A stretch of 64,000 bases of DNA, taken from Persicaria tinctoria (Eukaryota; Streptophyta; Magnoliopsida; Caryophyllales; Polygonaceae). This document shows positions 31,798 to 55,629 of this stretch, in pieces. The position numbers and the translations under genes are program-made. Every line of letters begins with the position of its first letter. Position 1 is the stretch's first letter. The stretch lies in contig JBANSL010000004.1 of the NCBI GenBank assembly GCA_037127255.1, positions 19,909,967 through 19,973,966 on the forward strand, written 5' to 3'. The notes beneath the pieces were generated by a model that had not been told where the DNA came from, made no database searches, and worked only from the letters and a program-made list of their open reading frames with translations.

Positions 31798-31805
31798 ATT
31801 GAGGT

Positions 31806-32777: not shown

Positions 32778-32830
<53 letters not shown>

Positions 32831-32893: not shown

Positions 32894-33080
32894 ATAGAGG
32901 TGGTGGTGACAGTGATAGAAGTGGTGATGACAGCGATAGGAGTGGTGGTGATAGCGATAAGAGTGGTGACAGCGATATGGAGGTGACAACGATAGAGGTG
33001 GTGACCGCAATAAGGGTGGTGACAGGGATATGGGCGGTGGTGACAGCGATATGGGTTGTGGTGACAGCGATAGGGCGGTG
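32894..33080. repeat. GGTGGTGACAGCGATA minisatellite, right block
   Basis: Continuation of the left array after the hAT insertion, with the same units. Confidence 0.92.
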
Positions 33081-33727
33081 ACACTAATCTCGTAAAAAAA
33101 AAAAAAATTGTCACCCAAAAATTTGTTTATCATCATACATGTGTCACCAAAGCCATAGACCGGTGTCACCACTTATAAAGGTGGTGACACTAATTTCGTA
33201 AAAAAAAAAAAAAAAAAAAATTCGAAAAAAAAAACGTGTCACCAAATTATTTTTTTGTGTTACCAAAGTTGTGTTATCAATTCATTGACTTTGACCGGTC
33301 AATGGTCAAAATAAAAATGGGAAGGAAGGAAGGAATGGGAAGGAGGGGTAAATATGTAATATTAGGACATTTTGCAAAAGGAGAAATAAAAGTGGACATT
33401 TTGCAAAAGACCTTGTAGAAAATGGACACTTAGCAAAAAAATCCATAAAAAATTATTTTAAAATTATAAGATACATTTATGGTAAAGTTTTTGTTTTTAT
33501 CTTAACTTCTATTAGTATTTTATAATATATTTATATATATTATTAATATTTTAGTTTTAAAAAAACGCGCCATGACGCGGAAATTGTACTAGTTTCTATT
33601 ATTTTAAAAAATTATTTAAAAATTAATATTTTATATATTTTTTTACCGTCCTAAAATAAGGATATCTGACTTGAAAAAGCCATTTATTTACTAATAGATG
33701 GAGTAATTATTATTATTATTTTTTTTT
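33081..33727. other. Spacer with TTTTGCAAA motifs
   Basis: GTGTCACC/GGTGACAC words flank poly(A) runs at 33085-33240. Further on, GGACATTTTGCAAAAG occurs twice near 33366 and 33394. AT-rich sequence follows. No gene seen. Confidence 0.35.
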
Positions 33728-36016: not shown

Positions 36017-36026
36017 AAATCTAATC
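36017..36026. other. Left target-site duplication of the giant MULE
   Basis: AAATCTAATC, identical to 53211-53220. Confidence 0.85.
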
Positions 36027-36072
36027 GGCGCGGATATCTACACCGCTAATTTTTAATATTTTCAACGCTAAT

Positions 36073-36308
36073 CACCGCATAGATATGCGGTGAGTTTAAT
36101 GACAGTCAACGCACCCACCGCATGTATATGCGTTGGGTCGACCTGTATAGCCACCCACTGCATTACGATGCGGTGGGTGTGTTCGTTCCGTTCAAACCCC
36201 ACCGCATACCCATACGGTGGGTTTCGAATAACCTGATTTGTGGTTAACTATTTGGAGGACCGGACCGGACCGGTAGAGGGTCGAGACGCACCGCATACCT
36301 ATGCGGTG
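36073..36308. promoter_or_regulatory. Palindrome cluster A at the MULE left end
   Basis: Five copies of the CACCGCATAnnTATGCGGTG family, from 36073 to 36308; the first and last are perfect and the middle three are diverged. Next to it, an approximately 50-bp unit (GCGGTGTGTTCCTTTACA..ATATAGGGGCA) is duplicated up to the LTR insertion point. Confidence 0.75.
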
Positions 36309-36395
36309 TGTTCCTTTACATCGAATTTAACATTAAATATAGGGGCATATGCGGTGTGTTCCTTTACAGCAAATTTAACATGTAATATAGGGGCA

Positions 36396-37791
36396 TGATA
36401 GCATGCATTTAGGTAGGCATAATAGGTTGCATTTAGCTTAGTTAAGATGCATTTCATGGATGGATTAAGAATGATTTGCATATTAGTTCTCTATGTTGTC
36501 GGAGTCGGAATCTACACGCTTTTATTGATTATTTCAGGTAATGGTAGATCCGAGGAGAAGACATGAGTTGATAACGCATTTGATGAGAATGTCTAGTTGA
36601 TCGAAGAAGCTTACATGAAGATCTCAAGAGGTCCTGAGAAGAAGAAGCGAACCTAAACGAAGAACAAGTCTGCAGAAGTTGTCGCCGGACATGCTGAACT
36701 TGTTTTGCACTTTCTGGAGGCCTCGGTTGTCCGATCGACTATTATGACCATGCGTTGGAAAGCTCTTTCAGAGAGCTACAACCTTCATGTTGACGTCGAG
36801 AGCTAATTCGTGACGGAAGTTTTGGGAAAAAACAATGCAGCGGCCGCCGCATGGTATGCTGCGCCCGCCGCCAGGGGCGGTATTCATGCTGCGCCCGCCG
36901 CAGCTGCCGTCAGCGCGCAACGTTTTTGGAAAAAAACCCTAGATGTTCTAATTTGCTTTGAGGGCCGACTTGGATGTCTTTTAGGCCGACTTTTATGTTA
37001 TTTTTCATTACTTCCATTCTATTCTTTGAACCATCAGACAATTAGAGGGAGAGCGATGTTCGCCATAGGCGGCTAAACTCTCTTCGTTCTACTTGCAATT
37101 TGAAGCTTTGTTTGGATTGATTGTGAGTTTCTAATTCTTGTTCCTTATTTCCTATATTGAATGCTTCAACTTCTTTGTGCTTGATTGTTTATTGTGTTGT
37201 TCTTTCTCGTCTGGCCAACTAGTTAGATCAATTCAATTGCTAGGGTTTTGTAGATTCCTGATTGCGAACCTTAACCCAAGTGGCAAACTTATTCCTTTAG
37301 GGCTGATTGAACTAATTGGATTGGTAGGAAGTTGGATGTGTTGTTAAATCCCTCTTTAGGGACTGCAAATACCTTGGTTAATCTCTGAACTTAAAGCTAT
37401 CAATTGGGTTAAATCCTTCTTTAGGGACTGTTCGATTGATAAGGGTTTCTAGGACTGATTGGACTAGTAACTATATTAGGTCGGGACAAGGGCATTCACA
37501 GGAAGACTAAAAGGACAAGAGGAAGTTACAATATCAATTCAACCAAATAAAGTGGATAGTTGTAGGTAGAGCGATCTTCTCTAAATTATTTTGCATCAAT
37601 TTGTTTTTATTTTATTTTGTTTTCTTTTCAATCTCAATCAACCAAAACCCCCCTTTCTTCTAATTGGTAAATACACATTGTTGAGAAATACTTGATTCTC
37701 TGTGGGATCGACCTCTTACTTGCTTGCTATACTAGTTTGTAGGTTTGAGTTTTATTTTGATACGGTTTATGCGACTAAAAACCGCTCATCA
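36396..37791 (+). repeat. 5' LTR
   Basis: 1396 bp; lacks the extra 20 bp of GCGCCCGCCG-type repeat present in the 3' LTR near 40958-40977. Confidence 0.93.
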
Positions 37792-37794
37792 AAT

Positions 37795-37812
37795 TGGCGC
37801 CGTTGCCGGGGA
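37795..37812 (+). promoter_or_regulatory. Primer-binding site
   Basis: TGGCGCCGTTGCCGGGGA, three bases after the LTR end; this form is typical of Tat/Athila-lineage gypsy and related non-autonomous elements. Confidence 0.85.
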
Positions 37813-37917
37813 ATCAAGTTTTTTTTTTTTGTGTATTTATTGATTTTTGTGCATATATCTAACCCATTGTGAGCCTATCTTACGGTTCACAACACCCTTG
37901 CTACTAACTTTTTCAAG

Positions 37918-39057
37918 ATGTTGAGATTAGCGCAGTTTGAAGGTGAGAACTTTCACCAATACTTCAGGAGATTGCATGAGTATGTTGACGACCTTGGTTC
38001 ATGGGGTTATCAATTCAGCATCCGGGATATGATTATGTGCATAATTGATGGGATGACTGTTGAGACACGAGCGCTTGCTGAGCACCTGAGTAACGGAGGC
38101 CTGAAGCGGTTAGGAGGATTGTCGGGGTTGTGGGATTTTTTCTGTTATATGGATTACCATGTTGCACAAGAAGAATTGCTCACCATGTCCCCTCCGCCAA
38201 TGGAGAACTCTGTCACATACCTGGAGGATCCATTCCATAGCCTTACACAGAGGTTGCAAGAGCAAGCTGAGACTCCTGAGAGTAGTAAGAACTTGGAGAA
38301 TCAGTTGAACAAACTCATTCAAATTTTAAGTGCAAAACGTGAGAAGGAAAGGGGCTTAGAAGAAGGAGTTGAAGTCATAACGGAGGGTGAAATTTTTGAG
38401 GAGCGGCAACCGTCGCAGGAGGGCGGCGATCACCGTACTGCTACTAATGAGCCCCCATCGACTTCCCTTGATTTTGAGAAACCCACCCCACCACCCCTTG
38501 AGTCTTTAAAGGATGAAAGAATGGAAGATCCTATCGAAATCATTACACTTAGTTCAGTCCCTCCTATGTGGTTTCAACATGACAATGACATGCCGAATGA
38601 GGAGGAATTGGTTGCAGACAACGATAGTTTCTTAGATGATGGAGGAGATGGTCTAGTGCTTCCTGGGTTGGAATCTCATGAGTCGACGCATGAGGTTACA
38701 TGTGATGTGTCTCCTACTCCATCTGCAACATCCATTCTGAGCTTGTCCATTGATGAACCAAGTCTAGAGCCATCAGTTGAGGTGCAAGAGGTAATAAAGG
38801 TAAACTTTTGCAATTTTGAAGTTAATGGTGTATATGTTGATCCTTTTGATTGCTATTTTGAAAAGTCACCAGCGGAACTGTGTTGGTGGTATCATATTCC
38901 TTCTGCAGAGAGTCATGCTAGACTCTTTAATAGATTGAAAGGGTTCGTGAGTTCCACATTTTATGCTTTCAATTTATTGTGCTATGATGTGCCTTGTAAG
39001 ATGTGTGCACAGGAATATGATAGGCTACTGAGGGCCTTGACGATGTCTGAGAGATAA
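37918..39057 (+). CDS. Gag-like protein of the non-autonomous LTR element
   Basis: 379 codons, uninterrupted. The N-terminal 80 residues (LRLAQFEGENFHQYFRRLHE, then FSIRDMIMCIIDGMTVETRA) follow the helical pattern of gypsy gag proteins; a glutamate-rich middle (about 130-260) and a C-terminal Cys/Trp-containing segment (ELCWWYH, CYDVPCKMC) follow. No zinc knuckle of the CCHC form and no protease motif are seen. It may help package the RNA into particles supplied by an autonomous relative. The intact frame agrees with the young age of the insertion. Confidence 0.7.
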   Translation: MLRLAQFEGENFHQYFRRLHEYVDDLGSWGYQFSIRDMIMCIIDGMTVETRALAEHLSNGGLKRLGGLSGLWDFFCYMDYHVAQEELLTMSPPPMENSVTYLEDPFHSLTQRLQEQAETPESSKNLENQLNKLIQILSAKREKERGLEEGVEVITEGEIFEERQPSQEGGDHRTATNEPPSTSLDFEKPTPPPLESLKDERMEDPIEIITLSSVPPMWFQHDNDMPNEEELVADNDSFLDDGGDGLVLPGLESHESTHEVTCDVSPTPSATSILSLSIDEPSLEPSVEVQEVIKVNFCNFEVNGVYVDPFDCYFEKSPAELCWWYHIPSAESHARLFNRLKGFVSSTFYAFNLLCYDVPCKMCAQEYDRLLRALTMSER

Positions 39058-40437
39058 GGTCTTGAGATTGAGAATAAGTCAAGCCAATGACATTAAAGAA
39101 AGGCGCTTCTCGGGAGGCAACCCGAGGTAATTTTTTCTTTCTTTTTCCTTTTTCTTTTCCTTCACCCTGATTATATTTGGTTTACTTTTGTTGTCTTTAT
39201 TGTTTCATTGAGGACAATGAAAACTTTAAGTGTGGGGGAGAGGAATTCTATATATAGATGCATATAGGAGATCATATTTAAATTTATGCATAATGTTTAA
39301 TTTCTGTAATCATTTTTATTAATTTTTGTTTATTTTCGTATTAAAAAAATTCAATTCAAAAATCCCAAAAATAGAGCATGCATTGCATATATATATGTGT
39401 TATTCAAATACCCATCTTGCTTAGTTTGTCCTCTATTTTAAATTTCAAGCATGATTCATAAAAATCCCATGGAGTTCTGGATGTTTTGATTATTATGTCT
39501 ATATTTGATTTTTGTGGAACAAGAGCTAGCAAATATAATTGAGCATGTATGATTGAGCTAAAAGTATGATTGAAGTGCTAAAAACATGACCCTGTGAGAA
39601 TGTTTGGCCTTATTTGAATTCTTTTGCTCAGTTGTGTGAATTACTCGCCTAGTGTTGCTACCTCTTGGCATTGACTGCAATATCTATTTTTAAAGATCGA
39701 CTCACATGTCTGTTGCTTGCGGAGTTTATGTTTATATTTTGAGTCTTTTGGTTTGAATTTGTGCATATTTAGTGAATAAGGTGGCAATGGTTGATGCACT
39801 GAGTAACCGGGTCTACGCATGACACCCACGGGTATGATTCGCGCAAAAAGGTGTGAAAACTATCCACTAGGAAAGAAAGCTTGATCATTGAGTAACCAGG
39901 TTCATTCATGACACCCATGTTTGCAACTTGCGTCAAAAGATGTTCAAGTGGAATTCATATTAGTAGGTTGAGGTGCTGATAGACCGGGGCCATTCATGAC
40001 ACCCATGTTTGCGCTTCGCGTAAGGAAAGCACCAAGACAAGAAAAAGAAAAAAAAAGAAAAGAAAACCAAGACAAGAAAAAGAAAAAAAAGTGTTGCATT
40101 TTATTTTCTTTATTGTGTCCCGCAAGTACTGACATTTCGGTAGAGAATTGGTGATATGGTGGTCAATGTCTATGAGCTTAGTGCATGATTGGTTTGAGTT
40201 GAGAGTTGTACCTTAAAGCCTAAACACATGAGTGAAACACATATTTTGGGTGAGGTTGGATGATGTCTACTTCTAAGCTTTGATCACTGGAATACATGCT
40301 ATGACGTTTGTTTGCTTGGTTTATGTTTTCACCTACTATGATGTTGCTTTTTGATGAGGTTGAAACTTGAAGGGATTTCCTGTGGGATGCGTTGATTCAT
40401 GTTCATTCTATCATTGCTTGAGGACAAGCAAAGATTA
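39058..40437 (+). other. Non-coding 3' interior of the LTR element
   Basis: No coding frame. Three imperfect direct repeats containing CATTCATGACACCCATGTTTG or a close variant lie at about 39795-40030. TTGAGGACAATGAAA..AAGTGTGGGGGAG at about 39210 and TTGAGGACAAGCAAAGATTAAGTGTGGGGAAG at about 40420 are related purine-rich words, so the first may be a duplicate polypurine tract. Confidence 0.6.
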
Positions 40438-40451
40438 AGTGTGGGGAAGTT
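40438..40451 (+). promoter_or_regulatory. Polypurine tract
   Basis: AGTGTGGGGAAGTT directly before the 3' LTR; primes plus-strand DNA synthesis in LTR elements. Confidence 0.82.
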
Positions 40452-41867
40452 TGATAGCATGCATTTAGGTAGGCATAATAGGTTGCATTTAGCTTAGTTA
40501 AGATGCATTTCATGGATGGATTAAGCATGATTTGCATATTAGTTCTCTATGTTGTCGGAGTCGGAATCTACACGCTTTTATTGATTATTTCAGGTAATGG
40601 TAGATCCGAGGAGAAGACATGAGTTGATAACGCATTTGATGAGAATGTCTAGTTGATCAAATAAGCTTACATGAAGATCTCAAGAGGTCCTGAGAAGAAG
40701 AAGCGAACCTAAACGAAGAACAAGTCTGCAGAAGTTGTCGCCAGACATGCTGAACTTGTTTTGCATTTTCTGGAGGCCTTGGTTGTCCGATCGACTATTA
40801 TGACCATGCGTTGGAAAGCTCTTTCAGAGAGCTACAACTTTCATGTTGTCGTCGAGAGCTAATTCGAGACGGAATTTTCGGGAAAAACCAATGCAGCGGC
40901 CGCCGCATGGTATGCTGCGCCCGCCGCCAGGGGCGGTATTCATGCTGCGCCCGCCGCTTATTTGCTGCGCCCGCCGCAGCTGCCGTCAGCGCGCAACGTT
41001 TTTGGAAAAAAACCCTAGATGTTCTAATTTGCTTTGAGGGCCGACTTGGATGTCTTTTAGGCCGACTTTTATGTTATTTTTCATTACTTCCATTCCATTC
41101 TTTGAACCATCAGACAATTAGAGGGAGAGCGATGTTCGCCATGGGCGGCTAAATTCTCTTCGTTCTACTTGCAATTTGAAGCTTTGTTTGGATTGATTGT
41201 GAGTTTCTAATTCTTGTTCCTTATTTCCTATATTGAATGCTTCAACTTCTTTGTGCTTGATTGTTTATTGTGTTGTTCTTTCTCGTCTGGCCAACTAGTT
41301 AGATCAATTCAATTGCTAGGGTTTTGTAGATTCCTGATTGCGAACCTTAACCCAAGTGGCAAACTTATTCCTTTAGGGCTGATTGAACTAATTGGATTGG
41401 TAGGAAGTTGGATGTGTTGTTAAATCCCTCTTTAGGGACTGCAAATACCTTGGTTAATCTCTGAACTTAAAGCTATCAATTGGGTTAAATCCTTCTTTAG
41501 GGACTGTTCGATTGATAAGGGTTTCTAGGACTGATTGGACTAGTAACTATATTAGGTCGGGACAAGGGCATTCACAGGAAGACTAGAAGGACAAGAGGAA
41601 GTTACAATATCAATTCAACCAAATAAAGTGGATAGTTGTAGGTAGAGCGATCTTCTCTAAATTATTTTGCATCAATTTGTTTTTATTTTATTTTGTTTTC
41701 TTTTCAATCTCAATCAACCAAAACCCCCCTTTCTACTAATTGGTAAATACACATTGTTGAGAAATACTTGATTCTCTGTGGGATCGACCTCTTACTTGCT
41801 TGCTATACTAGTTTGTAGGTTTGAGTTTTATTTTGATACGGTTTATGCGACTAAAAACCGCTCATCA
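40452..41867 (+). repeat. 3' LTR
   Basis: 1416 bp, about 98.8% like the 5' LTR by eye, with a 20-bp extra copy of a GCGCCCGCCG-containing unit. Confidence 0.93.
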
Positions 41868-42092
41868 GGGCATTATCGGAACTAGTCTCTATGTTGACTT
41901 CAGAAGAAAGATAACGTAGCGGGACAATCCACAATAAGAATAGTTGAACATGAAAGTACGATAAATGTCCTGGATGACAAAAAGCGTCGGTCGGAAAATG
42001 TCATAGAACATAGTTTGTGAAATCGCACAGACAAAGATACAACCCAATCGAACATATGGAGTTCGAAAAAAGACACCAGAAAGTGGAAAGTG

Positions 42093-42990
42093 CTAATACG
42101 ATAGGGGACGGCCACCGTCACGACGGCGGTAAGCTCTATATCGTGCAATCCTCGCCGCAAACTGCTCTACCCAACCGTCGACCGGGCGATCGTGATGTCG
42201 TGTCCATGTAACGTAGACTGGAGGTAGAGGTGAACCAGGCAACAACCAAATCTGTGAATAGAAGATGAATATTGACATCAGAAAAGAGAAACAAAACATT
42301 AACAAATCAATGAATATGAAATACGAAACGTACCGGAACGAAGTGGTTGCTGTTGCCGACTAAAGCTATTCCATCTAGCTCCTCATAGGCCGGTATTGAC
42401 GGGCCACCGGTGGCGTACAGAGGTAGGCACAACATCGGCGTCATCTATGACACAATCACCAAAGGACGCTGGTGAAGCGTGGCAAACACCTCGCCCATGA
42501 TCGGAATCTCCATCCAATACGTAGCATCATGACACGTGCCGAAATAGTTGACCCTCATGATGAGCTCATCTAAGGCAGGATAGTAATGGTACCAATCTGA
42601 ATGCAGCTGCAACTCAACGGCCAGCTCTCGTGGAACTCGAGGCCATGCGTCTTGTCCCAAGTTCAGAAGACAAGCAAAAGACCTATACCCACAGTGACCA
42701 TCACCTGCAACATTTGTGACGGCTCGTACGAAAGTAATCATGAATTCGTCGATGTTGCCATTGCCCCAATTGAAATCTACGTGAGGTAGATTCTGTGGTG
42801 GAAGCGTCGTAGGTGCTGGCATAGGAATGTCACCTACAATATCCGGAGCTGGCTCCGACGCTGATCGACCTTGCCCACGTCCCCTCCCACAACCCCGTCC
42901 TCGACCTCGTCCTCTACCTACTCCTCGGCCCCTAGGAGGGTCGTCGATGGCAATGGCGTTGGACCCAGTGACCTCCTCATTGCCTTCCAC
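42093..42990 (-). pseudogene. OTU-type cysteine protease of the MULE
   Basis: Exon 42990-42334 and exon 42251-42093, GT-AG intron of 82 bp. After an RG-repeat segment (GRGRGRGRGCGRGRG) comes the OTU core: DGHCGYRSF with the catalytic Asp-Gly-x-Cys near residue 97, then a helical region. After the break the catalytic His lies in VGNSNHFVP, and PGSPLPPVYVTW follows as in plant MULE-linked OTU proteins. An in-frame TAG (42445-42447) lies between the Cys and His halves. No ATG is found in frame at the start: 42990 is a GTG and an in-frame stop lies shortly upstream, so an upstream exon or a mutated start is likely. OTU enzymes cleave ubiquitin-type linkages; a role in protecting the element's proteins would be speculation. 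Confidence 0.8.
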
Positions 42991-43244
42991 GTCATCTGTT
43001 TCGTTTGATGACGGTTGACCCCGACCTCAGCCTTGACCTCGTGCTGATCCACTGGTCGCCTCTCTATCTGCCCGATGTTGAGCCCTAGCACGCTCACGTT
43101 CCTAAGGTAGAGGGTTCGTCTGACAGGGGTGGCGAGTCCTCGGTCTCCCGGACGGTCTACGGTCATCCGAGTCAGGGGGGTCAACGAGGTATGGGAGGGA
43201 TGATCACCGTCGTTGAATGTGCATGGGAGACCGTAGACGTCCCT

Positions 43245-44995
43245 TCAGTATCTATCTCTGCATGGTTGCGAAGGTGGCTCGGCTTCCATCTTCGTGTAGA
43301 TTTCGAACAACATGTTGAAACATTCCTTTGACACAATATTCCGAATTCGATCGAAAATCCATAGGTCGTAGGAGTCTGTAGGCCAGGTGTTGTTCGCTCT
43401 CCCCATCGTATTCTTCACCTCACTTATTTGATCCGCCATCATCAGGTCAATTGTGTTGATCACATGAGTGAAATCACCGACTGCAGAGTTTAAGGTCTTT
43501 TTCAACACATAATGAGCAGACTCCACCCTATAAGATAAGTGAGACTCGCATATGAAGATCGTTATATGTAAATAAATTACGTGTATAATGAATTTTATAA
43601 GGAAAAAGTAGGTGCACCTGTTCGTCGTGGTCGTACCAAAATGCTGGATTGCGTATGTCCATGCACGAACTATATTCTCCGAGTAATCTCGTAACCACGT
43701 CGCCTCCAAATACGGCATAAGCCCTTTGATATGCCCCCACTCTGCATGCATACCCCTCCTTCTAGCGGCGAAAGTTTCAACCGATCTGGATTGGAACAGG
43801 CCAACACATGTGTTCTTGAAATGCCTAGCAACATCAAGATTCTTTGACTTTTGGAAAACAGCTTCTTCGCATCGTCGGAGGACATGCACTGTGCACAACA
43901 TATGCCTGACACTGGAAAGAACTACTCGTAGCGCCGCAATCAACCCCAACTCTCGATCTGTGACAACAATGTTAGGAAGATTACCTCGCATGAGGTAAAC
44001 GAGCTGCCCCAACACCCAAATGTACGTATCTGTGTTCTCGTCCGACATTAAGCAGAACCCGATGACGAAGTTCTTCGTTGTGCAAGTGAATCCAACGAAC
44101 TCACACAAAGGGATCCCGTAACTGCACCATGAAATATTTGACTTTGCAAACCCTGGTGGGAAGGGGTAAAAGAATAAATGTAGATAGAAACGTACGCATT
44201 CGTCCGGTATGTACTATCGATGAGGACGACGTATGGAAAGATGGCTAGAAGATGGCGAGCGTTTGTATGGGCGATGAATAGATCTTGAAGCTTGTTGGGA
44301 TCGTCAGGGGATCTCCTCGTAGAGTAGAAGTAACCCTTCTCCCGCAAAATGAGGAGTGCTTCCTAGGTGACTGTTCGATCTCCTCTCGCTTCAGCTTTAA
44401 ACTTTGCCCTCGCATTGTACACTTGGCGCCGCGATGTGAAGTTCAACTTCTGCCGTGAGTCAGTTGTCTTCTTCAAGGTGGCTAAAATCAGTTTTGGTGG
44501 GGTACCAGCCACGGTAAGGGCCATCGTAGCGTCCCTTTCCTCTGTATCCATCCGTCCGACATACGGGTGACCGTTCAACGCACCGGGGAGTTGATGGTTG
44601 TGCTTGCCATGAAGAACGTCCAGGCCCCATTCACCCCGTTTGAACTCCACGCCAGACAATGCAAACAGACACCCCTCTATCTTCGAAATAGCTATGCGCG
44701 TGTTCCCGCTTGCATCATCTCCGGCAACTCGCGGTCTCTTACGGGGAGTGTACTCGCCATACTTCTCAAATGCGAGCAATAGACTCCCACGCCTTGTAGG
44801 AGTGCTCCCCCAAGAATGCTTGATTGTCAAAACCATATTAAGCTTTAAGGCGGTGCCACGACAGTGCTGTAGGAGATCGTCGCGATTGGTCCACGTCTGC
44901 GATGTAGAAAAATCGGAAGTGTAATCGCGGTACTCCTGGTTACGGGGCTGAACGTCCTCACCGTCGTCCGACATCGGATCAGCCTGCTCCTCCAA
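43245..44995 (-). pseudogene. MULE transposase (FAR1/MuDR type)
   Basis: Exons 44995-44196, 44121-43618 and 43527-43245, with GT-AG introns of 74 and 90 bp that restore the conserved junctions. The N-terminal zinc-finger-like region carries KIEGCLFALSG and WGLDVLHGKHNHQLPG. The MULE catalytic domain follows, with VLIDSTYRTNA (first Asp), NIVVTDRELGLIAAL (second Asp), the CTVHVLRRC Cys-His motif and NRVESAH (probable Glu). After it comes LKKTLNSAVGDF. There is no SWIM finger before the stop at 43245. One in-frame TAG (44363-44365) breaks exon 1, so this copy cannot make a full protein without readthrough. It would bind the element ends and catalyse transposition. Confidence 0.88.
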
Positions 44996-45238
44996 TGGTA
45001 GCTGTCGAGATGCAAACAGTACATATATATTAAGTGACCCATTTATGGTTTCCGTTCGCTCTAATTCATAAACTAAGTTATTCGACTACATTTAAAAGCC
45101 GGTACCTATATTTTGGTTTCCATTCGATATGATTTTACTACATATATTCTGGTTTCCATTCGATATGATTCCACTACCTATATTCTGGTTATTCCACTAC
45201 CTATATTCTACCTATAATGTCATTGTAAATAATAAACA

Positions 45239-45334
45239 TTAATTACATGCCGGAAGACGAGGGGGTGGTGGAGTACTTGTAGGTGCTTCATCCGCTGGGC
45301 TTGAAGGTCGTCCATTGGTGTCGTCGTTTGCCAT
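45239..45334 (-). CDS. Possible first exon of the transposase gene
   Basis: ATG at 45334 (MANDDTNGRPSS, proline-rich) with a TATA-like TGTATAATAAG about 55 bp upstream and a palindrome copy beyond that. It may be a leader exon joined to the transposase frame (which reads upstream of its own ATG as LPLEE after a CAG acceptor at 45001-45003). The phases of the donors I tried do not fit, so the link is unproven. Confidence 0.3.
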   Translation of the reverse strand: MANDDTNGRPSSPADEAPTSTPPPPRLPACN

Positions 45335-45402
45335 ATTAGAAAATGAGGTGTGGGGGAATGGATGGATTCCAACGGAGAGCGGAAGACTTATTATACAGTA
45401 AC

Positions 45403-45560
45403 ACCGCATAGGTATGCGGTGGTGGTTAATTACCGTTGACACGGAATTATTTCAATATGCGGTGAGAGATACACCGTATGAGTATGCGGTGTGTACCACC
45501 GTATAGGTATACGGTGGTATACACTGCATAGGTATGCGGTGTAACACCGCATAGGTATGC
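45403..45560. promoter_or_regulatory. Palindrome cluster B, transposase promoter side
   Basis: Five copies of the CACCGCATAnnTATGCGGTG family in 160 bp, two of them with matched changes in both arms (for example CACCGTATAGGTATACGGTG), which keeps the dyad. TATA-like CTATATATAG follows at 45572. Confidence 0.8.
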
Positions 45561-45589
45561 GTTGGGTGCCTATATATAGTCCATGCCCG

Positions 45590-45898
45590 GGGAGTGAAAA
45601 TTTTCATGGCGGAAAAGCAATGATAATCCAGGCAGACTAGCCACGGCCAAAGATTTGTGTCTTCGGATCGAAATTTTTGACTGTTGACTAGTTTGCTTGG
45701 GTTATATCCCTACGCCCCATAAAATAAAATCCGTATGTATGTATTTTTCTTGGCTGAATAGCGATGATAGCCTAGGCAACATGCCACGTCTGGCGATTTA
45801 TGTCTTTTGATTGAAATCGCAGGGCGTTGGCATGTTGCTCGGGTTATATCGCTTCGATCTGGGGTTATATCGCTTCGATCTAATAAAATGCAATAGTT
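45590..45898. repeat. Diverged direct repeats in the MULE intergenic region
   Basis: Segments near 45617-45690 and 45768-45830 (GCAATGATAATCCAGGCA and GCGATGATAGCCTAGGCA, each followed by GCCACG and a TTTGTGTCTT/TTATGTCTTT word) are diverged copies. GGTTATATCGCTTCGATCT occurs twice in tandem at about 45840-45880. Confidence 0.6.
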
Positions 45899-45974
45899 AT
45901 CCGCAGGATAACGTGAAAGACGTTATGATAGTACACATGTACGTCCATAACGTCTTTTACATTATCCTGCGGAT
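45899..45974. repeat. Strong hairpin, 29-bp arms
   Basis: Arms 45899-45927 and 45946-45974 pair with two mismatches (ATCCGCAGGATAA..GACGTTATG). The loop is 18 bp and itself contains GTACACATGTAC. It lies between the transposase and P1 genes. Confidence 0.85.
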
Positions 45975-46274
45975 GACTTTTGCTCATCCAATCAAAACCG
46001 TACGTAAATGCTTTGGAAACGTACCGGTACGGGTACACCGTGATCTTCGTCCGTCATCGGAGTTGGCGCCCAAATTACATCAGTCGAGGGGGAATGAACC
46101 TCTTACGAGAGGACGAAGCTGGGAATTTCCATCGGAACGCACGACGGAATCTCTCATATTCGTACTTTTATAAGATGCTCGCTCTCCCCCGACCGATGGA
46201 ATTTGGACGACCAACTCCAATGAAGGACACATATCACGATGTCCCCGTGCCGGTACGTTTCCTCATCTTACTCT

Positions 46275-46372
46275 AACACCGCATACCTATGCGGTGGTAT
46301 ATACACCACATAGGTATGCGGTGGTACATACCGCATAAGTATGCGGTGGTACATACCACATAGGTATGCGGT
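46275..46372. promoter_or_regulatory. Palindrome cluster C, P1 promoter
   Basis: Four copies of the CACCGCATAnnTATGCGGTG family in about 100 bp, followed by TATATAAAG at 46389, 42 bp before the likely start codon of P1. Confidence 0.8.
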
Positions 46373-46430
46373 GTGTACACAATGAAAACTATATAAAGAG
46401 CCTATGGCCCTGTCTCCAAATGTAAACACT

Positions 46431-46919
46431 ATGTCCACTACCAAAGTGTATGGTGTGGAGACAAGATCGGGCAGTAGGTTTAGACTTACAGTCGAAACTT
46501 TTCGTACGCCAACTGACGATTTATTGTGCAACTGTCAGCACAAAAGCTGGAAAGGATGGATGTGCTGCCTTTTCCAAGTTGTATGCGGAGAACTCAATAC
46601 AGCGAGGGTTTCCCATTCGGTTGACCTAGAGTGCGTCCAAGGAGTGACTTACGAGGATATCCGCATGACCAGGGTGTACTCGTATAGCGATAACCCTGCC
46701 GCATATTATGTTTACGTGACGGATGCAATTACGAAGCTTGTTAGCGACTTCTTCTCCGATTTGGGATTGGCCAGTGCATCACAGGTGGCAAGATACGTAG
46801 TGGAAAAAGTTGTGCAGCGTGCAAACACCAAGCTTACAAAGTACTCATTCCACCAAATAGAGATTCACATTTTGCCGAGCAATGTAGAGGAGTCGGTTGG
46901 TAGTTGTTATGTACCATAG
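46431..46919 (+). CDS. MULE small protein P1 (unknown family, copy 1)
   Basis: 162 codons from ATG 46431. An in-frame ATG at 46404 lies only about 10 bp after the TATA box (46389), too close to be transcribed with normal spacing, so the later one is preferred. Visible features: CNCQHKSW at about 33-40 (C-x-C-x-H), CCLFQVVC, SVDLECVQG, an acidic-aromatic YYVYVTDAI segment, and VVQRANTKLTKYSFHQIEIHI near the C-terminus. No signal peptide or membrane helix. It is paralogous to P2 and P3 in the same element. I know no family for it. The Cys/His cluster might bind metal, and the SxxLAS..ARYVVEKVVQRAN stretch looks helical. Role unknown; a regulatory or DNA-binding role is conjecture. Confidence 0.78.
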   Translation: MSTTKVYGVETRSGSRFRLTVETFRTPTDDLLCNCQHKSWKGWMCCLFQVVCGELNTARVSHSVDLECVQGVTYEDIRMTRVYSYSDNPAAYYVYVTDAITKLVSDFFSDLGLASASQVARYVVEKVVQRANTKLTKYSFHQIEIHILPSNVEESVGSCYVP

Positions 46920-47045
46920 GTAAAATGTTGTCGGTTGGTAGTTGTTATGTATCATTTATGGTTAATTTATCAGGTGCCGTGTTAAACCAACAACTATAAT
47001 TATCACGTACATCATTTGCACTACATAATTGATAATATACACCTA

Positions 47046-47556
47046 TCAACCGCTTCCAGGTAATGGGTCATACCTATACAGTACAGGCTCTTCGGAACAA
47101 CTACCTACTGACTCCTCGAGAAGACGTGGGTTAATGTGGATCTCAATGCGGTTGAATGCGTACTTCTTCACTTTGTCGTTCGCTTGACGGACTGCGTTGT
47201 CGACAGTGAACCTTGCAATTCGAAGTGCGCAGCTTAGCCTGACATCGCTGAATAGGTCGCTGATTGCGCATTTGATTGCCTCAACCGCATCGCGGTAGTA
47301 TGACTCAGGGTCCTCAATGTGTAATTGGTGACCTTTCACACACGCCAATTCAACCGGCTCCGAGAATGCGTAGGTATTGCCTTCAACGCCTTTATAGCAT
47401 ACAACGTGAAAAAAGACAGTAGGAAAATGATTGACACCACGTCTTGTGCTGGCAATTGCACAAATAATCCTCGTATGGACGCGAAAACTTTTCAAGTATA
47501 ATTTTGAATGACACACCACTATCTGTCTCACCTTCAAACTCATCTACTCTCACCAT
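47046..47556 (-). pseudogene. MULE small protein P2 (same family, copy 2, frameshifted)
   Basis: ATG at 47556 (MVRVDEFEGETDSG), TATAAA at 47625-47620 about 65 bp upstream. The first frame reads DYLCNCQHKTW and SYCLF, then breaks at a run of six A on the plus strand (47409-47414). The rest continues in another frame with HVVCYKGVEG, EPVELACVKG, YYRDAVEAIKCAISDLFSD, NAVRQANDKVKKYAFNRIEI and LEESVGSC. Each block lines up with P1 (CLFQVVC, VDLECVQG, RANTKLTKYSFHQIEIHI, VEESVGSC). One extra base in the homopolymer explains the shift. The frame upstream of 47556 translates palindrome repeats and is not part of the gene. Confidence 0.78.
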
Positions 47557-47653
47557 TTGCTTCGATTGTTGTGATTCGTAGTCTTGTAACGCATGAAACC
47601 GTATGAGGTGGTTGTCCCATTTTATAGCCAATGGGTTGGGTTTGAACGACGTA

Positions 47654-47870
47654 CACCGCATAGGTATGCGGTGGTACCACCGCATACCTATGCGGTGTGT
47701 GCATGGCTGCCTGGGCATTCGGTAACCCGGTCCGGTCCGGGTCACACCGCATGTGTATGCGGTGTGCATACACCGCATGTGTATGCGGTGTGCATACACC
47801 GCATGTGTATGCGGTGTATGCATACACCTCATGGGTATGCGGTGTGAACACGCCGCATACACATGCGTTG
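47654..47870. promoter_or_regulatory. Palindrome cluster D, shared promoter of P2 and P3
   Basis: Seven copies in 217 bp between divergent P2 and P3. Three are consecutive identical units (CACCGCATGTGTATGCGGTG with a 7-bp spacer, 27-bp period). TATA boxes flank the cluster: TATAAA at 47625-47620 for P2 and CTATAAAT at 47877 for P3. Confidence 0.85.
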
Positions 47871-47925
47871 TGTGGCCTATAAATCCTGACGGCAACACCA
47901 CTGCGGCTGTCCAGGGAACCACAAA

Positions 47926-48369
47926 ATGGTCAACTCCTTAGACACTTACCGGCGAACGGCAGGTTATTTGGAGTACAAGGTTACGTTAATTCGATGCACG
48001 GAGCCACGGTGGCCGGAGGAATACACCTGCAGGCATCCAGCTTACATTGCGGGAAATTTGTGCGTCATACTTCAGTGTCAATTCGAGATGGACACTGACG
48101 TAGCATATCCGATCGAGTTTTCTTGTGCGCATTGTTATGACGACAGAGGGTTTCCGGAATCGTATTACTTAGATGCGGAGGCGTGGATCGTGAATCACAT
48201 TAGGAGATATTGTCGTTACGATCTTTACATTCAAGGGGCTGAGGGGCTATGTGATCATGTCATCCGAAAGCTGAGAGCATTCAATGCATGCGAAAGGTGT
48301 TATGCGTTCAACCAAATAAATATTGTAATTTCCATTAATGAGAGGTCATCGGCCAAAGGTAGTGACTAG
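47926..48369 (+). CDS. MULE small protein P3 (same family, copy 3)
   Basis: 147 codons, intact, with a TATA box 45 bp upstream. It is the most diverged copy: EEYTCRHPAY (C-x-H), LCVILQC, YPIEFSCAHC, ESYYLDAEAWIVNHIRRYC, then FNACERCYAFNQINIVISI. The order and spacing of the Cys/His site, the V/I-E-x-C block, the YY-x-x-A helix and the final Y-x-F-x-x-I-x-I block match P1 and P2. It has extra cysteines (about 12 in all). No known domain recognised. Confidence 0.78.
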   Translation: MVNSLDTYRRTAGYLEYKVTLIRCTEPRWPEEYTCRHPAYIAGNLCVILQCQFEMDTDVAYPIEFSCAHCYDDRGFPESYYLDAEAWIVNHIRRYCRYDLYIQGAEGLCDHVIRKLRAFNACERCYAFNQINIVISINERSSAKGSD

Positions 48370-48698
48370 GCGTGAATTACCAAGTATGTAGTGTGTTGTG
48401 CAAATGTTGTATTTTCAGTTGTAAGCAATTAAACCTTTTAATCAAAATCTCCTTCGGATTCAGATCGGTGAATTTCATGTCATATTAGTTAAAATGTTGC
48501 AATGGAAATGATAAATATGTTGCAATAGGAAACATATGACACAAAGAGGGTACGAAGCCGACATATTATTACAACAACATTGTTACAACTACAAAGACGA
48601 CAAACAAACAACTACACGGACAACAATAACAACGACTTCATCACACGAGCACAAACAAACCACTTCAACTTCGTGTGATAACGCATAACGCATAAATC

Positions 48699-48887
48699 CT
48701 AGATCTTGTCGGCATGCTTGTTGTTGATGTGCCTCTTCAGATGACCGTGCTGCAAATTGTTCGCCACTGTGTAGCGATGGCCGCAGTGACGACACGTTGC
48801 GGTGAAAGCGATGCCTCCTAGTGCCTCCTTGTTGTAGTGTTTGGTGAACAGGTCTTCACGTGGAACTTGGGCTGGTTCGGAAGACAT
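48699..48887 (-). CDS. Small BED-like zinc-finger protein of the MULE
   Basis: 62 codons: MSSEPAQVPREDLF, then CRHCGHRYTVANNLQHG and LKRHINNKH. This is C-x2-C followed about 20 residues later by H-x4-H, the pattern of BED/C2H2-type fingers found in transposases and their relatives. A single finger with nothing else suggests a DNA-binding accessory protein or inhibitor. TATAAAATA lies about 45-50 bp upstream (near 48935), and a palindrome copy (about 48945) sits between it and the divergent coiled-coil gene. Confidence 0.65.
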   Translation of the reverse strand: MSSEPAQVPREDLFTKHYNKEALGGIAFTATCRHCGHRYTVANNLQHGHLKRHINNKHADKI

Positions 48888-48942
48888 TGTCGCCGATCAG
48901 GTGTGTTTCCGGCGACGGTTGGGGTCGGTATTTTATAGACAC

Positions 48943-48966
48943 ACCCACTGTATGGGTATGCGGTGA
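48943..48966. promoter_or_regulatory. Single palindrome copy E between divergent small genes
   Basis: CACTGTATGGGTATGCGGTG, a diverged copy, between TATA boxes of the BED-like gene (minus) and the coiled-coil gene (plus, CTATATATGG at 48974). Confidence 0.7.
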
Positions 48967-49016
48967 TCCCACCCTATATATGGCTGCATTCCCTCGATAA
49001 GTTACCACACATCAAC

Positions 49017-49289
49017 ATGCCGGACAACAGCGGCGACAGCTCAAGCAACGACATAATACGTCAAGGCACGATGGAAGAGTTTGAGGTGGTTCTGTACACT
49101 GGAAGTCCACGCTCACAGACGGTGGAGTCGATAATAAAGAGGCTACGGGATGAAAATCGGTCGTTGCTTGTCGAAAACCAACAAGCCCGTTTGCGGGTTG
49201 ATATCCTGGAGAGTCAAGTTGCAGTTCTGGAAGAGGGAAAAAAGGCTCTCGCCATGAAGCTAGATCAGGCTAGTTTACGTAACCCATGA
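49017..49289 (+). CDS. Small coiled-coil protein of the MULE
   Basis: 90 codons from ATG 49017, 43 bp after a TATATA box. The Ser/Asp-rich start MPDNSGDSSSNDI is followed by a leucine-zipper-like heptad stretch, about residues 38-80 (IIKRLRDENRSLLVENQQAR, LRVDILESQVAVLEEGKKAL). It probably oligomerises. No basic DNA-binding region precedes the zipper. Function unknown. Confidence 0.6.
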   Translation: MPDNSGDSSSNDIIRQGTMEEFEVVLYTGSPRSQTVESIIKRLRDENRSLLVENQQARLRVDILESQVAVLEEGKKALAMKLDQASLRNP

Positions 49290-49582
49290 CTATATTAGGC
49301 TTGTATTTGGTCAAATGTAATTTAGAAAGTTCGTTTCGAATCATGATATTTAAGCGCTAACTTAAGAGCGAAAAATGGAAGCTCTGAACGGGCATAATAT
49401 GCAAATTTGAAATCGATCCAAAGCGGTAACAAACCAGCAAATCCACACCGAAAACACCAAATACATAATCCCATATCAAATCACCAACTACTACCAAAAA
49501 TCAATCCAAACTACCAACTACTACACAAAAAGTCATCTAACCGCTAACAGAACAACCAAATAAACCATCCCAGATCGAAACG

Positions 49583-52500
49583 TCACGGTGGGGGAGGACC
49601 CCAAAATTGCTCATAGATGCGCGCCAAATGTGCATCTGTCAACTGAACTCCTAGGGACCTGAGTCGCTGAATCTCCAACCCAGCAGCATGATGTCGCTGC
49701 TCGATAATGGTCGGCGGGGGTGGCAGCGGCGAGATGATGGGCTGGTGTCGAGGAGTGTCAGGAAGTATGTATGGATGACTATGGCGGTGTAACCACTCTA
49801 CATAGTCATCGGCCACGCCATATGGGTACTCAGCAGAGGTCCTTGGCAACTCCTCCATGGGGAACAGATGATCGAACCTATGCGCCCAGTGGTTGTCGGC
49901 CGTGTGGAACGACGCCTCCTTCTTGGCCTTGACGGACTTCGGTCTGTGCGCTTTGCTAGGTCTGATTGGATCAGTAGGAATGTGCTGAACCCGACCAAAC
50001 TGTCGCAGCACACGGTCTGGCATATACGGCTCCTCCTCGAACAACCACCGGATGGTGCCCCTATATCGAGACAGACGCAGATCTCCATCAAAATCCAAGT
50101 GCCTACCAAAAGGCATGAACTCGATCTGCAATGGAAAAGAAATTATTTATACGACTCAAATGTTGAAAATCTAGTTTATTGTCTCACAAATGTAAGTGCG
50201 GAAGTACAATGTGTTCGTACCTCATCGACGGTCATCTCATCCAGCCTCCGCCGCATAACACCCAGTCGCTCAATGCGAGGCCTATCATCCCGGGACATCG
50301 TAGTGGAAAATGGCATCGCCCCCAGGACGTACCTCACCCCGTGTCGCGGATCCCGGGCTAGCCTCCGATCGAGCATCATGCCAACCTTGAACACCGGAAA
50401 ATACAGCCATATCCACACCTACAATGGAACAATACTATCAGAAACATAGTCATTGTCACTTAGTTATAAAACTGGAAAAAATTCAGGCATCAGAGAACGA
50501 ATGACTTACCTCCAGCAGTTTCGTACAACCGTCCATGTCTTTGGCCAACTCCCTGGTCGCCTCGCCCAATCCTCGATACAAGCATGCCAAGACCCCTACC
50601 GCTAAAGAAAGATTCGGAACCTCTGCTGCATCCATAAACCTACGAAGCACCTCCGGACGCAATCTTCCGCCCGACTTGTCGATGAACAGCGTCGCATTCG
50701 CAATAAGCCCCATCGCAACAGCCACGATGCCCTCCATATCATGCTCTAGTGGGGCGCCATCTCGAATCCGCTGTCGCATCGGTTCTATCTTCTGAAGGAG
50801 GAGCTGAACAGTGGGGCCTCCATGGTTCCATGCGCTCTCCCGCTCGTGCTGAGTCAAGCCGTACAAGTCCCCAACTCTCTCCCTCCCGGCGGCCACGTCA
50901 TCCACATGAATACACTACTCTCCGTCCAAACCAAGCCCAAGTATGAAGAACACATCGTGCAGTGTGATAGTGATCTCTCCCCATGCAAAGTGGAAATTGT
51001 TCGTCTCGGGGTGCCAGTGCTCAACAAACGCACTGATTAGACTGTGATCCACATGATCCCACTCAAAATCTCTCAGCTCCCAGAGCCCAGTGTCATGCAC
51101 TGCGGGAAACCAGGACTCCCGTCCATCCACCTCCAACAACGCCTCTACCCGGCCCAGCAACTGCCCCCGTCTCTGCACACGCACACCCCTCTGCAAGGCT
51201 ACCTCCTCCCGTCTCCAAACAGCCTGTGCAATGTGGGCCTCGTAATCTCTCAAAAGTGAAACGGTGTGTGGCCCCCCGGCCATTCGGGCAGAACTGCCCG
51301 AACTACCCCAGCGCTGCTACGCTCGCCATGCTGCCTATCACCTCCTGCACTACTTCCCTCGCCATTCTGCCTATCACCGCCTGCCCTACTGCTCTCGCCA
51401 CGCTGTCTCTGCCTCCGCTTCACTACACGGACGGGGGCATGTGCCGCTTGATCTCCTCCCCTGTCCTGACCAACATTGTCAGATGTCCCTCACATCGGAT
51501 CATGCCTCTCCAGACCCCCAGCAATCGGCTCAGCCTCCAAGTTCCTAGGTGTCGTCGATGGCGCCGCCTACTGACTCCCAGTAATCGGTTCAGGCTCCGA
51601 GTTCCTCGGCGTCGACGATGGCGCCGCATGCTGACTCCCAGGCGTCCTCCCTCCACCCGTAGATACTAACGGTGTGAACGACGCAAAATCTATCTGCCCA
51701 ACGACCCATCGCTCCTGGTCGCCCGCTCGAGCATGACTCGTCCCAACACCTGCATCTCCGAGCAGAGCTGACGTGTCGTCATACGAGTTCAATTGGTCGC
51801 TCTCAAACGCAGTCCCAAAGTACGCCTGATAACCGTCGTGTTGAGTCTGCAACTGCTCATCCACTCTCTCAGCTCCAGCCTGCTGTGCTCGGTCCCCTCG
51901 TAGGTACTCCTGCATCATCCTGGTCTAGACTCTTCGGTCGACTGCACCACTGGGTCATTCGTGTGGTCAGACATCAACTCCAGCTCAATCTGCACCAGAC
52001 TATGATATGTCTCTATAGACGACTTTGACGTATGCCCCAAACCGTCACTTTGGTCAACACGAGACTGAGACGATGGCTCGACCCCAGTATCAGCTCCTAC
52101 CGTCTCACTATCCCTCTCCGGAGGATCCACTACATCCTCCAACGTCTGGCTCTCCCTGACGGCAGCCCCAGTATCATCACCTACCGCGTCACTATCCATC
52201 TCCATAGGATCTGGTACATCCTCCAACGAATGTCTCTAACTCCCTAGCGACAGCCCTCCTAGCAGATTGCAAAACCACCCTCTCTCATAACCCTCTCGAT
52301 AACGTGGATTGTGTAAATTAAAATATATTTGTCAGAATCCTATCGCTCGAATACGATACTATATCGTATGACTGACTAAATGTTGCAAGACTTTCCTAGG
52401 GTTTATTAATGATTTCAACTTAATACTATCGATTCCTAAGAAAACAGAAATATACTTATTCGATTTCAATTTCCCTACACCTAGTAATGATTTTAACATA

Positions 52501-52755
52501 CCTTAGGTTGAGGCTATGTCTGTGGTTGTTGCTCAGGCTGTGGCTCAGGTTGTGGCGGGACATCTGTCGTCCTCCTCCTCTGTATAGTCGGTTCGGCCTA
52601 CATTATATATAACAATTATAGGTTAACACTATCTCATTCCGCTTAAAAATTAATGCAAATTGATTTTTATATAGGTTCAATGTTACCTGTAACGGATGTC
52701 TCCGAAAAGGACCGACACCATCAGACGCATCTTTTCTACGATTGTCTTTCACCAT
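49583..52755 (-). pseudogene. Plant mobile domain (PMD) protein of the MULE
   Basis: The core exons are clear: 51283-50510 (GGPHTVSLLRDYEAHIAQAV, WELRDFEWDHVDHSLISAFV, FHFAWGEITITLHDVFFILG, then GLIANATLFIDKSGG and LACLYRGLGEA), 50418-50221 (VWIWLYFPVFK) and 50125-49583 (IEFMPFGRHLDFDGDLRLSR to QFWGPPPP), joined by GT-AG introns. This is the PMD (aminotransferase-like) fold shared with the domesticated MAIN/MAIL proteins. An in-frame TAG (50915-50917) interrupts the core. Upstream, acidic low-complexity frames (52226-51568) with internal repeats and leader exons (52755-52687 MVKDNRRKDASDG; 52597-52502 QPEPQPEQQPQ with a TAG) probably form the N-terminus, broken by shifts. TATAAATAGG lies near 52890. 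Confidence 0.75.
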
Positions 52756-52917
52756 CTCAACACTCGGGTACAAAGTGGGGGTAGAAAGAGGGACGGGAGA
52801 ATCGACGGAACCAAAAGTCGGGCTCGGAAAGAAAGGAATCGGAGAAGAGTCGGAAAGTGTGTCGAAGAAATGGGGCCCGCACGCCTATTTATAATGGGCC
52901 CCCTCCGCGGTTACAAC

Positions 52918-53165
52918 CCACCGCATACCCATGCGGTGAGTTGTTACATAATCTTTTAAAATTGTAAAAAAACCCACCGCATAGGTATACGGTGGGTTGC
53001 TTATATCTTCGAACCAGTCGAATTTATGTATAACGGACTCCGTTGTACCCTAACCTACCGCATATACATGCGGTGAGTTGCCATACGGTCAACGCACCCA
53101 TCACATGTATATTCGGTGGATCAGGGGAAAATTTAATTACGCCACCGCATAGGTATACGGTGGCT
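52918..53165. promoter_or_regulatory. Palindrome cluster F at the MULE right end
   Basis: Five copies, several with matched arm changes (CACCGCATAGGTATACGGTG), close to the right terminus and upstream of the PMD leader exon. Confidence 0.75.
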
Positions 53166-53210
53166 TTACGGTGTGAATAGTAAAAATTAGCGGTGAACTT
53201 ATCATTACCC

Positions 53211-53220
53211 AAATCTAATC
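53211..53220. other. Right target-site duplication of the giant MULE
   Basis: AAATCTAATC, identical to 36017-36026. Confidence 0.85.
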
Positions 53221-54640: not shown

Positions 54641-55629
54641 ATGGATGAGGAAATGCAATTGGTGCCCACGTCGGCTCCTCCCCCGCCGGGAGACCCGGGT
54701 GGGAACAAAGACGAGGAAATGCATACGGTTCCAACGCCCCCCCCCCCCCCCTCCCTCCGCCTAAGAATCCGTGTGGAGATAAGGACGAGGTGATGCAGCC
54801 GGTGTCCACGACGGAGCCTCCTCTGACGGAGAAGCCGGTTGGGAACAAGGATGCTGAAACCTCTGACAGTGCTACTCCACCAGAGAAGTTCGGGGGGATG
54901 AAGGAGGATGCTGAAAACACTGGCAGCGCTACAGCTCCGACACCTCTTTCCTGGAGAGACAAGGTGGTCTTCGGGGGAACCAACATGTGGAAAGAGGGAG
55001 CGAAGATTCACGTGATCGACCTACCTCATAGGAACTTCCTCGTTCGATTAGAAAATAAGGAGGATTGCATGAGAATTCTCACAGGAGGCCCCTGGTCACT
55101 CTTCGAGCGTTGTCTCATTATCAAGGCTTGGTCGCCAGATTTCAAGCCGTCGGAAGTTATTAAGACCGCCTCGGCCTGGCTGAGAATTTTGGACCTTTCT
55201 CTAATCTATTACCAAGAAGATGTGCTTCTGAAAATCGTCGAGGAGCTGGGAAGACCTATCAAAGTCGATCATCGGACGATCTACACCAACAGAGGTAACT
55301 TCGCTAGAGTTTGTGTCGAGGTTGATCTTGAAGAACCTTTGAAGGGGGCGATAAGCATCAATGATGAGAGGTACAAGCTCGAATATGAAGGGATCCCTAG
55401 CATTTGCTTTGGTTGCGGTCGTCACGGTCACCTGAAAGTCAACTGCAAGTTCATATCCCCGGAGGTGGAGATGATGGGTGCTAAGGATAACGGTGGGAAG
55501 CAGGTGGTGGCTTCGTCCAGTCCTGGGCAACGTGAGGAAAGGGCCGAAAACGGAGGTGAGGGGGACTCCTATGGCCCCTGGATGGTGGTGGCGCGCCGGA
55601 AGAACACCGGCAGCCGGAAACCTAGGTAG
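54641..55629 (+). pseudogene. LINE ORF1 (DUF4283 and zinc knuckle)
   Basis: Likely start ATG 54641 (MDEEMQLVPTSAPPPPGDPG). The frame shifts at a 15-C run (54737-54751) and continues through MQPVSTTEPP to 55629. After N-terminal repeats of the NKDxE..PPP type come the DUF4283 region (LSWRDKVVFGG, FLVRLENKEDCMRIL, GGPWSLFERCLIIKAW) and a CCHC knuckle CFGCGRHGHLKVNC, with a basic C-terminus. It would bind LINE RNA. The C run may differ in length through polymerase slippage or sequencing error. Confidence 0.85.

Follow-up and report, generated by a model that had tools for sequence, protein, structure and literature searches.

The window analysed here is a stretch of 64,000 nucleotides from the Persicaria tinctoria genome (C4:19909967-19973966 of an assembly of 1.68 Gb in 221 contigs, GCA_037127255.1), and it contains a large Mutator-like element (MULE) at 36026..53210, inclusive of a long terminal repeat (LTR) element nested within it. 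The cargo of the MULE is made up of seven protein genes and one non-coding unit, the latter predicted to fold into four hairpins. As read from the sequence, all eight units lie behind one type of promoter, in which one or more copies of a palindrome are followed by a TATA box. An earlier note on this DNA had described the element and its coding content; that first reading overlooked the hairpin unit as well as the palindromes ahead of each unit.

Borders and genes of the element

The element is flanked by a 9-bp target-site duplication, AAATCTAAT, located at 36017..36025 on the left and at 53211..53219 on the right. An identical 10-mer, AAATCTAATC, occupies 36017-36026 and 53211-53220, does not occur a third time on either strand of the window, and had been taken for a perfect 10-bp duplication. 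That length was rejected because the duplications of two other copies (C18b and C20, described below) are perfect 9-mers and because only a start at 36026 makes the terminal inverted repeats (TIRs) equidistant from the two ends; the tenth base, a C, is therefore attributed to chance. The left TIR (36033..36060, plus strand) matches the right TIR (53176..53203, minus strand) at 24 of 28 positions, a value equalled in none of 2000 shuffles and by none of 5000 randomly paired segments of the window, and both termini are matched by the full-length copy on C17. The nested LTR element (36396..41867) lies outside the unit proper, is bordered by a 5-bp duplication (GGGCA, 36391-36395 and 41868-41872), and has an LTR divergence of 0.012 (Kimura two-parameter distance, K80); without it the unit is 11.7 kb long. 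The imperfect inverted repeats at both ends, the nested insertion, and the approximate length of the unit given in the earlier note were thus upheld. Both the duplication, which falls within the 8-11 bp (mostly 9 bp) of the MULE superfamily, and the TIRs are as expected of a MULE. Compared with VANDAL-type termini, the TIR of the window copy is short and imperfect, yet clear; some members of the VANDAL group are listed with TIRs of 46-174 bp (Table 1, PMC6446971).

The transposase gene (42307..45336, minus strand, ends approximate) has several exons and an OTU-like C-terminus, and its reading frame is interrupted by clear in-frame stops at 44363 and 42445 and likely ones at 43245 and 43027. 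The MULE domain PF10551 was found over its Pfam cut-off (E 5.7e-13), in agreement with the superfamily assignment, and PF21056 was found under its cut-off (E 3e-5); the closest proteins found were MULE proteins of Saponaria (25-32% identity). The OTU-like piece of the window matched no Pfam profile, that of OTU cysteine proteases included, and no PDB entry; all four copies compared retain the DGHC box, and three of the four retain the NHF box. Because no palindrome separates the transposase from the OTU-like part, we infer that the two are most simply a single gene. To the right lie S1 (46431..46919, plus strand, 162 aa), its paralogue S2 (47046..47556, minus strand, frameshifted in the window copy), and a third paralogue, S3 (47926..48369, plus strand, 147 aa). 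S1 aligned with S2 (E 1e-25) and S2 with S3 (E 2e-4), and a direct comparison of S1 with S3 gave no alignment. Relatives in public short contigs share 80-83% identity with S1, 76% with S2, and 74-84% with S3. The fold of S1, predicted with moderate confidence, consists of strands, then two helices and a further strand, and gave no clear fold match, and the N-terminal part of the protein contains a Cys-rich CNCQH...CC stretch that is SWIM-finger-like by eye only. The remaining genes encode a zinc-finger-like (BED-like) protein of 62 aa (48699..48887, minus strand), a probable coiled-coil protein of 90 aa whose coil is putative (49017..49289, plus strand), and a plant mobile domain (PMD) protein (49583..52755, minus strand, start approximate, several exons). 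PF10536 was found on three exons of the PMD gene (E 2.3e-16, over the cut-off; 5.3e-7; 2.9e-8), which has a clear in-frame stop at 50915 and possible others upstream.

These results modify the gene count of the earlier note, which had claimed at least eight genes: there are seven protein genes plus the non-coding unit, with the OTU-like part best read within the transposase gene. Its MULE and PMD assignments were reproduced with Pfam, and the OTU and BED-like assignments were left without profile confirmation; the proposed family of three small paralogues holds for the pairs S1-S2 and S2-S3, with no direct alignment for S1-S3.

Palindromic promoters and the hairpin unit

The palindrome is 20 bp long (consensus CACCGCATANNTATGCGGTG) and occurs in the window at 26 sites with no more than two core mismatches and at one weak site. 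Every site scoring above 8 bits (27 of 27) is within the MULE, the nested LTR element being free of them; the sites score 12.5-36.3 bits, and the best score elsewhere in the window, outside the element, is 5.5 bits. On both strands of the window the pattern was matched 51 times, compared with a mean of 0.58 in shuffled windows. Five of the palindromes are at the left end, five (including the weak one) at the right end, and 17 between genes, an arrangement of family-specific motif arrays in non-coding regions such as characterizes VANDAL elements. The left-end array (36073..36308) has start-to-start distances of 43, 40, 44, and 89 bp. Five palindromes (45402..45564) separate the transposase gene from the hairpin unit, four precede S1 (46277..46373), seven are common to the S2 and S3 promoters (47654..47870), and a single one is common to the promoters of the finger and coiled-coil genes (48946..48965), where two to four are present in the other full copies. 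The right-end array, with four strict sites and the weak one (52919..53162), is also the promoter side of the PMD gene.

In each of the eight units in the window, 6-27 bp (by eye) separate the end of the nearest palindrome from a TATA box downstream, and the predicted starts of the seven protein genes follow about 40-132 bp past it. Conversely, the convergent regions of the window (46920-47045, 48370-48698, and 49290-49582) contain no palindrome. In the full copies K17, C18b, and C20 a strict site was located within 420 bp of 20 of the 21 protein-gene starts, those of the transposase and S2 genes being estimates; the exception is S1 of K17. At the ends, palindromes mostly follow each other at about 43 bp or double that distance, in promoters at about 25 bp, and the two spacings could represent two binding modes; 43 bp corresponds to about four helical turns.

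The hairpin unit (45571..46264, plus strand) lies between the transposase gene and S1, behind a rightward palindrome-TATA promoter of its own, and encodes no evident conserved protein. Its TATA box (45571-45578), which is at a near-constant position in K17, C18b, and C20, is followed by hairpins h1 (45620..45708; z -6.8 for 45612-45712), h2 (45758..45855; z -10.1 for 45760-45856), h3 (45889..45984; z -14.8 for 45886-45988), and the long h4 (46013..46264, 97 pairs), all on the plus strand. The 671 bases from 45600 to 46270 fold at -329 kcal/mol, compared with -182 kcal/mol for 20 shuffles. Hairpins h1, h2, and h3 form stable foldbacks whose long stems are almost completely paired, as is required of plant microRNA (miRNA) genes. 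As h1 and h2 are 71% alike, one of them may, judging by this resemblance, have arisen from the other. All four hairpins are retained in K14a, K17, C18b, and C20, and h2 is 96-99% identical across four copies. Compared with the window, 12 of 29 offered copies gave identities of 0.91, 0.96, 0.94, and 0.91 for h1 to h4, 0.84, 0.80, and 0.78 for the three spacers, and 0.85 for the leader. Some pairs of h3 are compensatory: among 25 sequences (24 distinct), 17 cells were changed on both sides, compared with 9.7 in shuffles (0 of 500 reached this value), the covariation score was equalled by 4 of 500 shuffles, and two pairs alternate C-G with U-A, in six and eight sequences. Rfam searches of the unit returned only sub-threshold matches to unrelated animal and viral miRNA families, and the three open frames tested in it matched no Pfam family. 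The frame at 45811-46173 was rejected as a gene, since it overlies the hairpins and its length varies among copies.

Copies elsewhere in the genome

Loci encoding the S1 protein number at least 150 in the genome (72-100% identity), a lower bound that reflects the scoring of 150 out of 1447 candidates. Three neighbourhoods of about 13.8 kb were fetched, followed by the end stretches of eight more loci and then the interior of two of those eight. Three full-length copies besides that of the window were recovered, namely K17 on C17 (11,905 bp), C18b on C18 (12,896 bp), and C20 on C20 (13,099 bp), and each ends at the same termini as the window copy. The target duplications of C18b (ATTACAAAT) and C20 (AATATAAAT) are perfect 9-mers, and that of K17, in poly-A, matches at 8 of 9 positions. 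K17 aligns along the whole length of the unit (88-94% identity in large blocks) and its flanks differ from those of the window. In all three, the gene order is that of the window, with the transposase/OTU-like gene (minus), S1 (plus), S2 (minus), S3 (plus), finger (minus), coiled coil (plus), and PMD (minus). Because full copies with different target duplications keep the genes, their order, and their orientation, the cargo moves as one unit; the earlier note had argued for such unity and had proposed a search for full copies with other duplications, which were found on C17, C18, and C20.

Two partial matches are located on C14. K14a is the insertion of the window inside a duplicated segment, with the left flank and target duplication in common, and its match stops within the last PMD exon, the rest of the unit being absent from the fetched stretch. 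K14b matches from S1 through PMD, to 71 bp short of the right end, and its left part was not recovered. Among the end stretches, those on C5 and C9 have a left end only, that on C10 a right end only (with the same right flank as the C20 copy), and C18a a broken right end; no element end was seen in the stretches examined on C13 and C16. No empty site was found among the fetched loci, K14a being an occupied insertion. The full copies at other sites show past activity of the element family, and the window copy is decayed. In comparisons from which rows tp_c and tp_d were excluded as out of frame, dN/dS for the last PMD exon was 0.19 (K17), 0.63 (K14a, 80 codons only), and 0.24 (K14b).

Further observations concern the copies and their surroundings. 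C20 and C18b (loci L021, L033, and neighbours) contain about 0.8 kb of extra sequence with an added palindrome pair between the hairpin unit and S1, and, judged from these longer copies, the window copy may have lost one more unit. Insertions common to two contigs together with their flanks (the window and L039-L040 on C14; L050 on C20 and L058 on C10) are a sign of segmental or whole-genome duplication. The left ends at L061 (C18) and L062 (C5) are preceded by the same 9-mer, ATTACAAAT, with different flanks, a possible target preference. Elsewhere in the window there are a 491-aa open frame on the minus strand that is CACTA (En/Spm) transposase-like by eye (714-2189); minisatellite-like tandem repeats (30845-31805 and 32890-33088) that recur further right; long palindromic stretches, possibly foldback miniature inverted-repeat transposable elements (MITEs), at 32515-32792 and 26555-26793; and, just right of the element (54790-60416), frames resembling a long interspersed nuclear element (DUF4283, E 3.6e-28), followed by sequence that is reverse-transcriptase-like by eye.

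Interpretation and comparison with known systems

The window copy is best interpreted as an old, decayed member of a large multigene MULE family with its own regulon and hairpin unit, a reading to which we assign a probability of roughly two in three. The regulon would probably be run by an element-encoded protein that binds the palindromes, partly so as to withstand host silencing. As the anatomy of the full copies shows, the MULE transposase moves the element and generates the 9-bp duplications. Most likely, the palindromes would be bound by a dimer of an element-encoded protein, which would switch the units on together, keep silencing marks off, or both, and which may also mark the element ends for transposition. 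The favoured binder would be the 62-aa finger protein, because it changes least (dN/dS 0.17, 0.14, and 0.16 against K17, K14a, and K14b, resting on about 10, 3, and 20 changes), with the transposase and the S proteins as alternatives. The hairpin unit would be transcribed along with the other units and cut into small RNAs; the hairpins may thus yield small RNAs that, by analogy with miR820, could counter host silencing. A bolder version, which we regard as tentative and somewhat doubtful, envisages a virus-like programme in which one element factor and one palindrome would act on all promoters and both ends, turning on the transposase, counter-silencing proteins, and four hairpin RNAs whose small RNAs would be directed against host silencing genes.

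Several results weigh against the preferred reading. In-frame stops are present in the pieces compared of all four full copies (transposase, OTU-like, coiled-coil, and PMD pieces of K17; transposase and S2 pieces of C18b; transposase and PMD pieces of C20; and those of the window given above), and there is no stop-free copy among them. Upstream of S1 a strict palindrome within 420 bp was found at 23 of 30 fetched loci and not at all of them (in two of these, L018 and L024, the reading was out of frame, and that of L024 had the wrong orientation as well). The S proteins appear to evolve fast and under little constraint in the comparisons with K17, K14a, and K14b (dN/dS of S1 0.59, 1.44, and 1.11), few changes underlie the finger estimates, and the kinship of the finger protein with BED and C2H2 fingers is below threshold (sub-threshold C2H2 matches only). 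The hairpins are no better conserved than the coding sequence of S1 (mean identity 0.93, 29 loci). The covariation of h3 is modest and comes from related sequences; the count of doubly changed pairs (equalled or exceeded in 173 of 500 shuffles) and that of additional pair types (357 of 500) are unremarkable. Finally, 21-mers from the hairpins had no match, and hence no target, elsewhere in the window at up to three mismatches, the same result as for a shuffled control.

Two alternatives concern the palindromes. They might be transposase-binding subterminal repeats that spread inward within an ordinary MULE carrying passenger gene fragments, through capture of the Pack-MULE kind. Palindromes are indeed present at both ends, all full copies have in-frame stops, and MULEs of many clades carry captured genes and PMD genes (Table 1, PMC6446971). 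This account is quite unlikely, however, given a palindrome and TATA box at every unit of the window, their absence from convergent regions, the recurrence of the layout in three copies (20 of 21 starts), the presence of the complete gene set in the same order in four full copies, and the low finger dN/dS (0.14-0.17). A Pack-MULE, moreover, would lack a transposase and carry gene fragments, whereas a transposase gene is present in the window, K17, C18b, and C20. Slightly less improbable, though still unlikely, is that a VANC-like anti-silencing protein targets the arrays, which would then play no part as promoter elements. According to the cited sections of PMC5735166 and PMC10398659, VANC21 binds the arrayed motifs of the VANDAL21 family and strips silencing marks, and the arrays described here are likewise non-coding, family-specific, and built of repeats spaced about 25 bp apart. 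Their location directly ahead of TATA boxes nevertheless suggests a promoter role, and the motif here is a palindrome, which the reported YAGTATTAY is not; S1-S3 and the coiled-coil protein matched no named Pfam family over the cut-off, with no VANC sequence compared directly.

Instead, the hairpins could be foldback MITEs nested in the element, or they could form an inverted repeat that silences the element itself through small interfering RNAs. Long, near-perfect foldbacks are typical of MITEs, and inverted repeats of a MULE can silence that MULE, as with Mu killer in maize. The existence of miRNA genes derived from MITEs is reported in PMC10004981. An origin of this kind is improbable, if the least so of these alternatives, since the four hairpins are at the same place in four other copies behind a TATA box of near-constant position and are better conserved than their spacers, and since the lack of 21-mer matches in the rest of the window tells against self-silencing beyond the unit; the search by eye for MITE target duplications covered the surroundings of h3 only. 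That all copies derive from one large segmental duplication, so that gene order would say nothing about transposition, agrees with the left flank and duplication common to K14a and the window and with the right flank common to the C10 and C20 ends. As a sole explanation it was rejected and is scarcely credible, the flanks of K17, C18b, and C20 being different and their target duplications their own.

The occurrence of eight units under a common palindrome-TATA promoter, together in independent copies, makes dedicated transposon regulons and silencing resistance directly testable. The palindrome is a ready bait for its binding protein, the conserved hairpins are candidate transposon-encoded small RNAs, and the S family is of interest as one with no Pfam match over the cut-off and no clear fold match. 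With the words searched, the open-access full-text literature returned no report of this gene set, of a transposon whose units are all preceded by a palindrome, or of a MULE with a hairpin cluster. Already known are PMD genes in MULEs, an additional open reading frame (ORF), and OTU in one MULE, MuDR-6_HM (cited sections of PMC6446971), as well as the motif arrays of VANDAL elements (cited sections of PMC5735166), and an anti-silencing role of captured PMD proteins has been suggested earlier (cited sections of PMC5418596).

With MuDR and the PMD-carrying plant MULEs (groups 42 and 45-50 of Table 1, PMC6446971, in which PMD is often antisense) the element has in common the MULE transposase, the 9-bp duplication, a TIR of tens of bp, and the PMD gene. 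The groups tabulated there have one or two ORFs plus extras (PMD, an unknown ORF, or a DUF), whereas seven protein genes and a hairpin unit with a common palindrome promoter are present here. The Kaonashi (KI) MULEs, in part as described in the cited sections of PMC13317346, have captured a ULP1 protease domain and so likewise carry protease-like cargo, OTU-like in the present case; their protease is of another family, and they are without a comparable gene set. VANDAL21 (Hiun), in the sections cited above, is also a multigene MULE with arrays of short family-specific motifs in its non-coding parts, and its short or degenerate TIRs may have a counterpart in the short, imperfect ones here. Its motif of nine bases is non-palindromic and is the target of an element protein, VANC, which removes silencing marks from its own family; here a 20-bp palindrome is tied to TATA boxes, the binder is putative, and no VANC relative was recognized, a distinction drawn without direct sequence comparison. 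Rice CACTA elements with pre-miR820 are likewise DNA transposons that house a hairpin RNA. In the cited sections of PMC3459959, these carry a single precursor that may stem from its own target, OsDRM2, and miR820 lowers that methyltransferase; here the host is a MULE and four hairpins are predicted in one unit. The nearest parallel for the palindrome arrays is VANC of VANDAL21, and that for the hairpins is miR820 of the rice CACTA elements.

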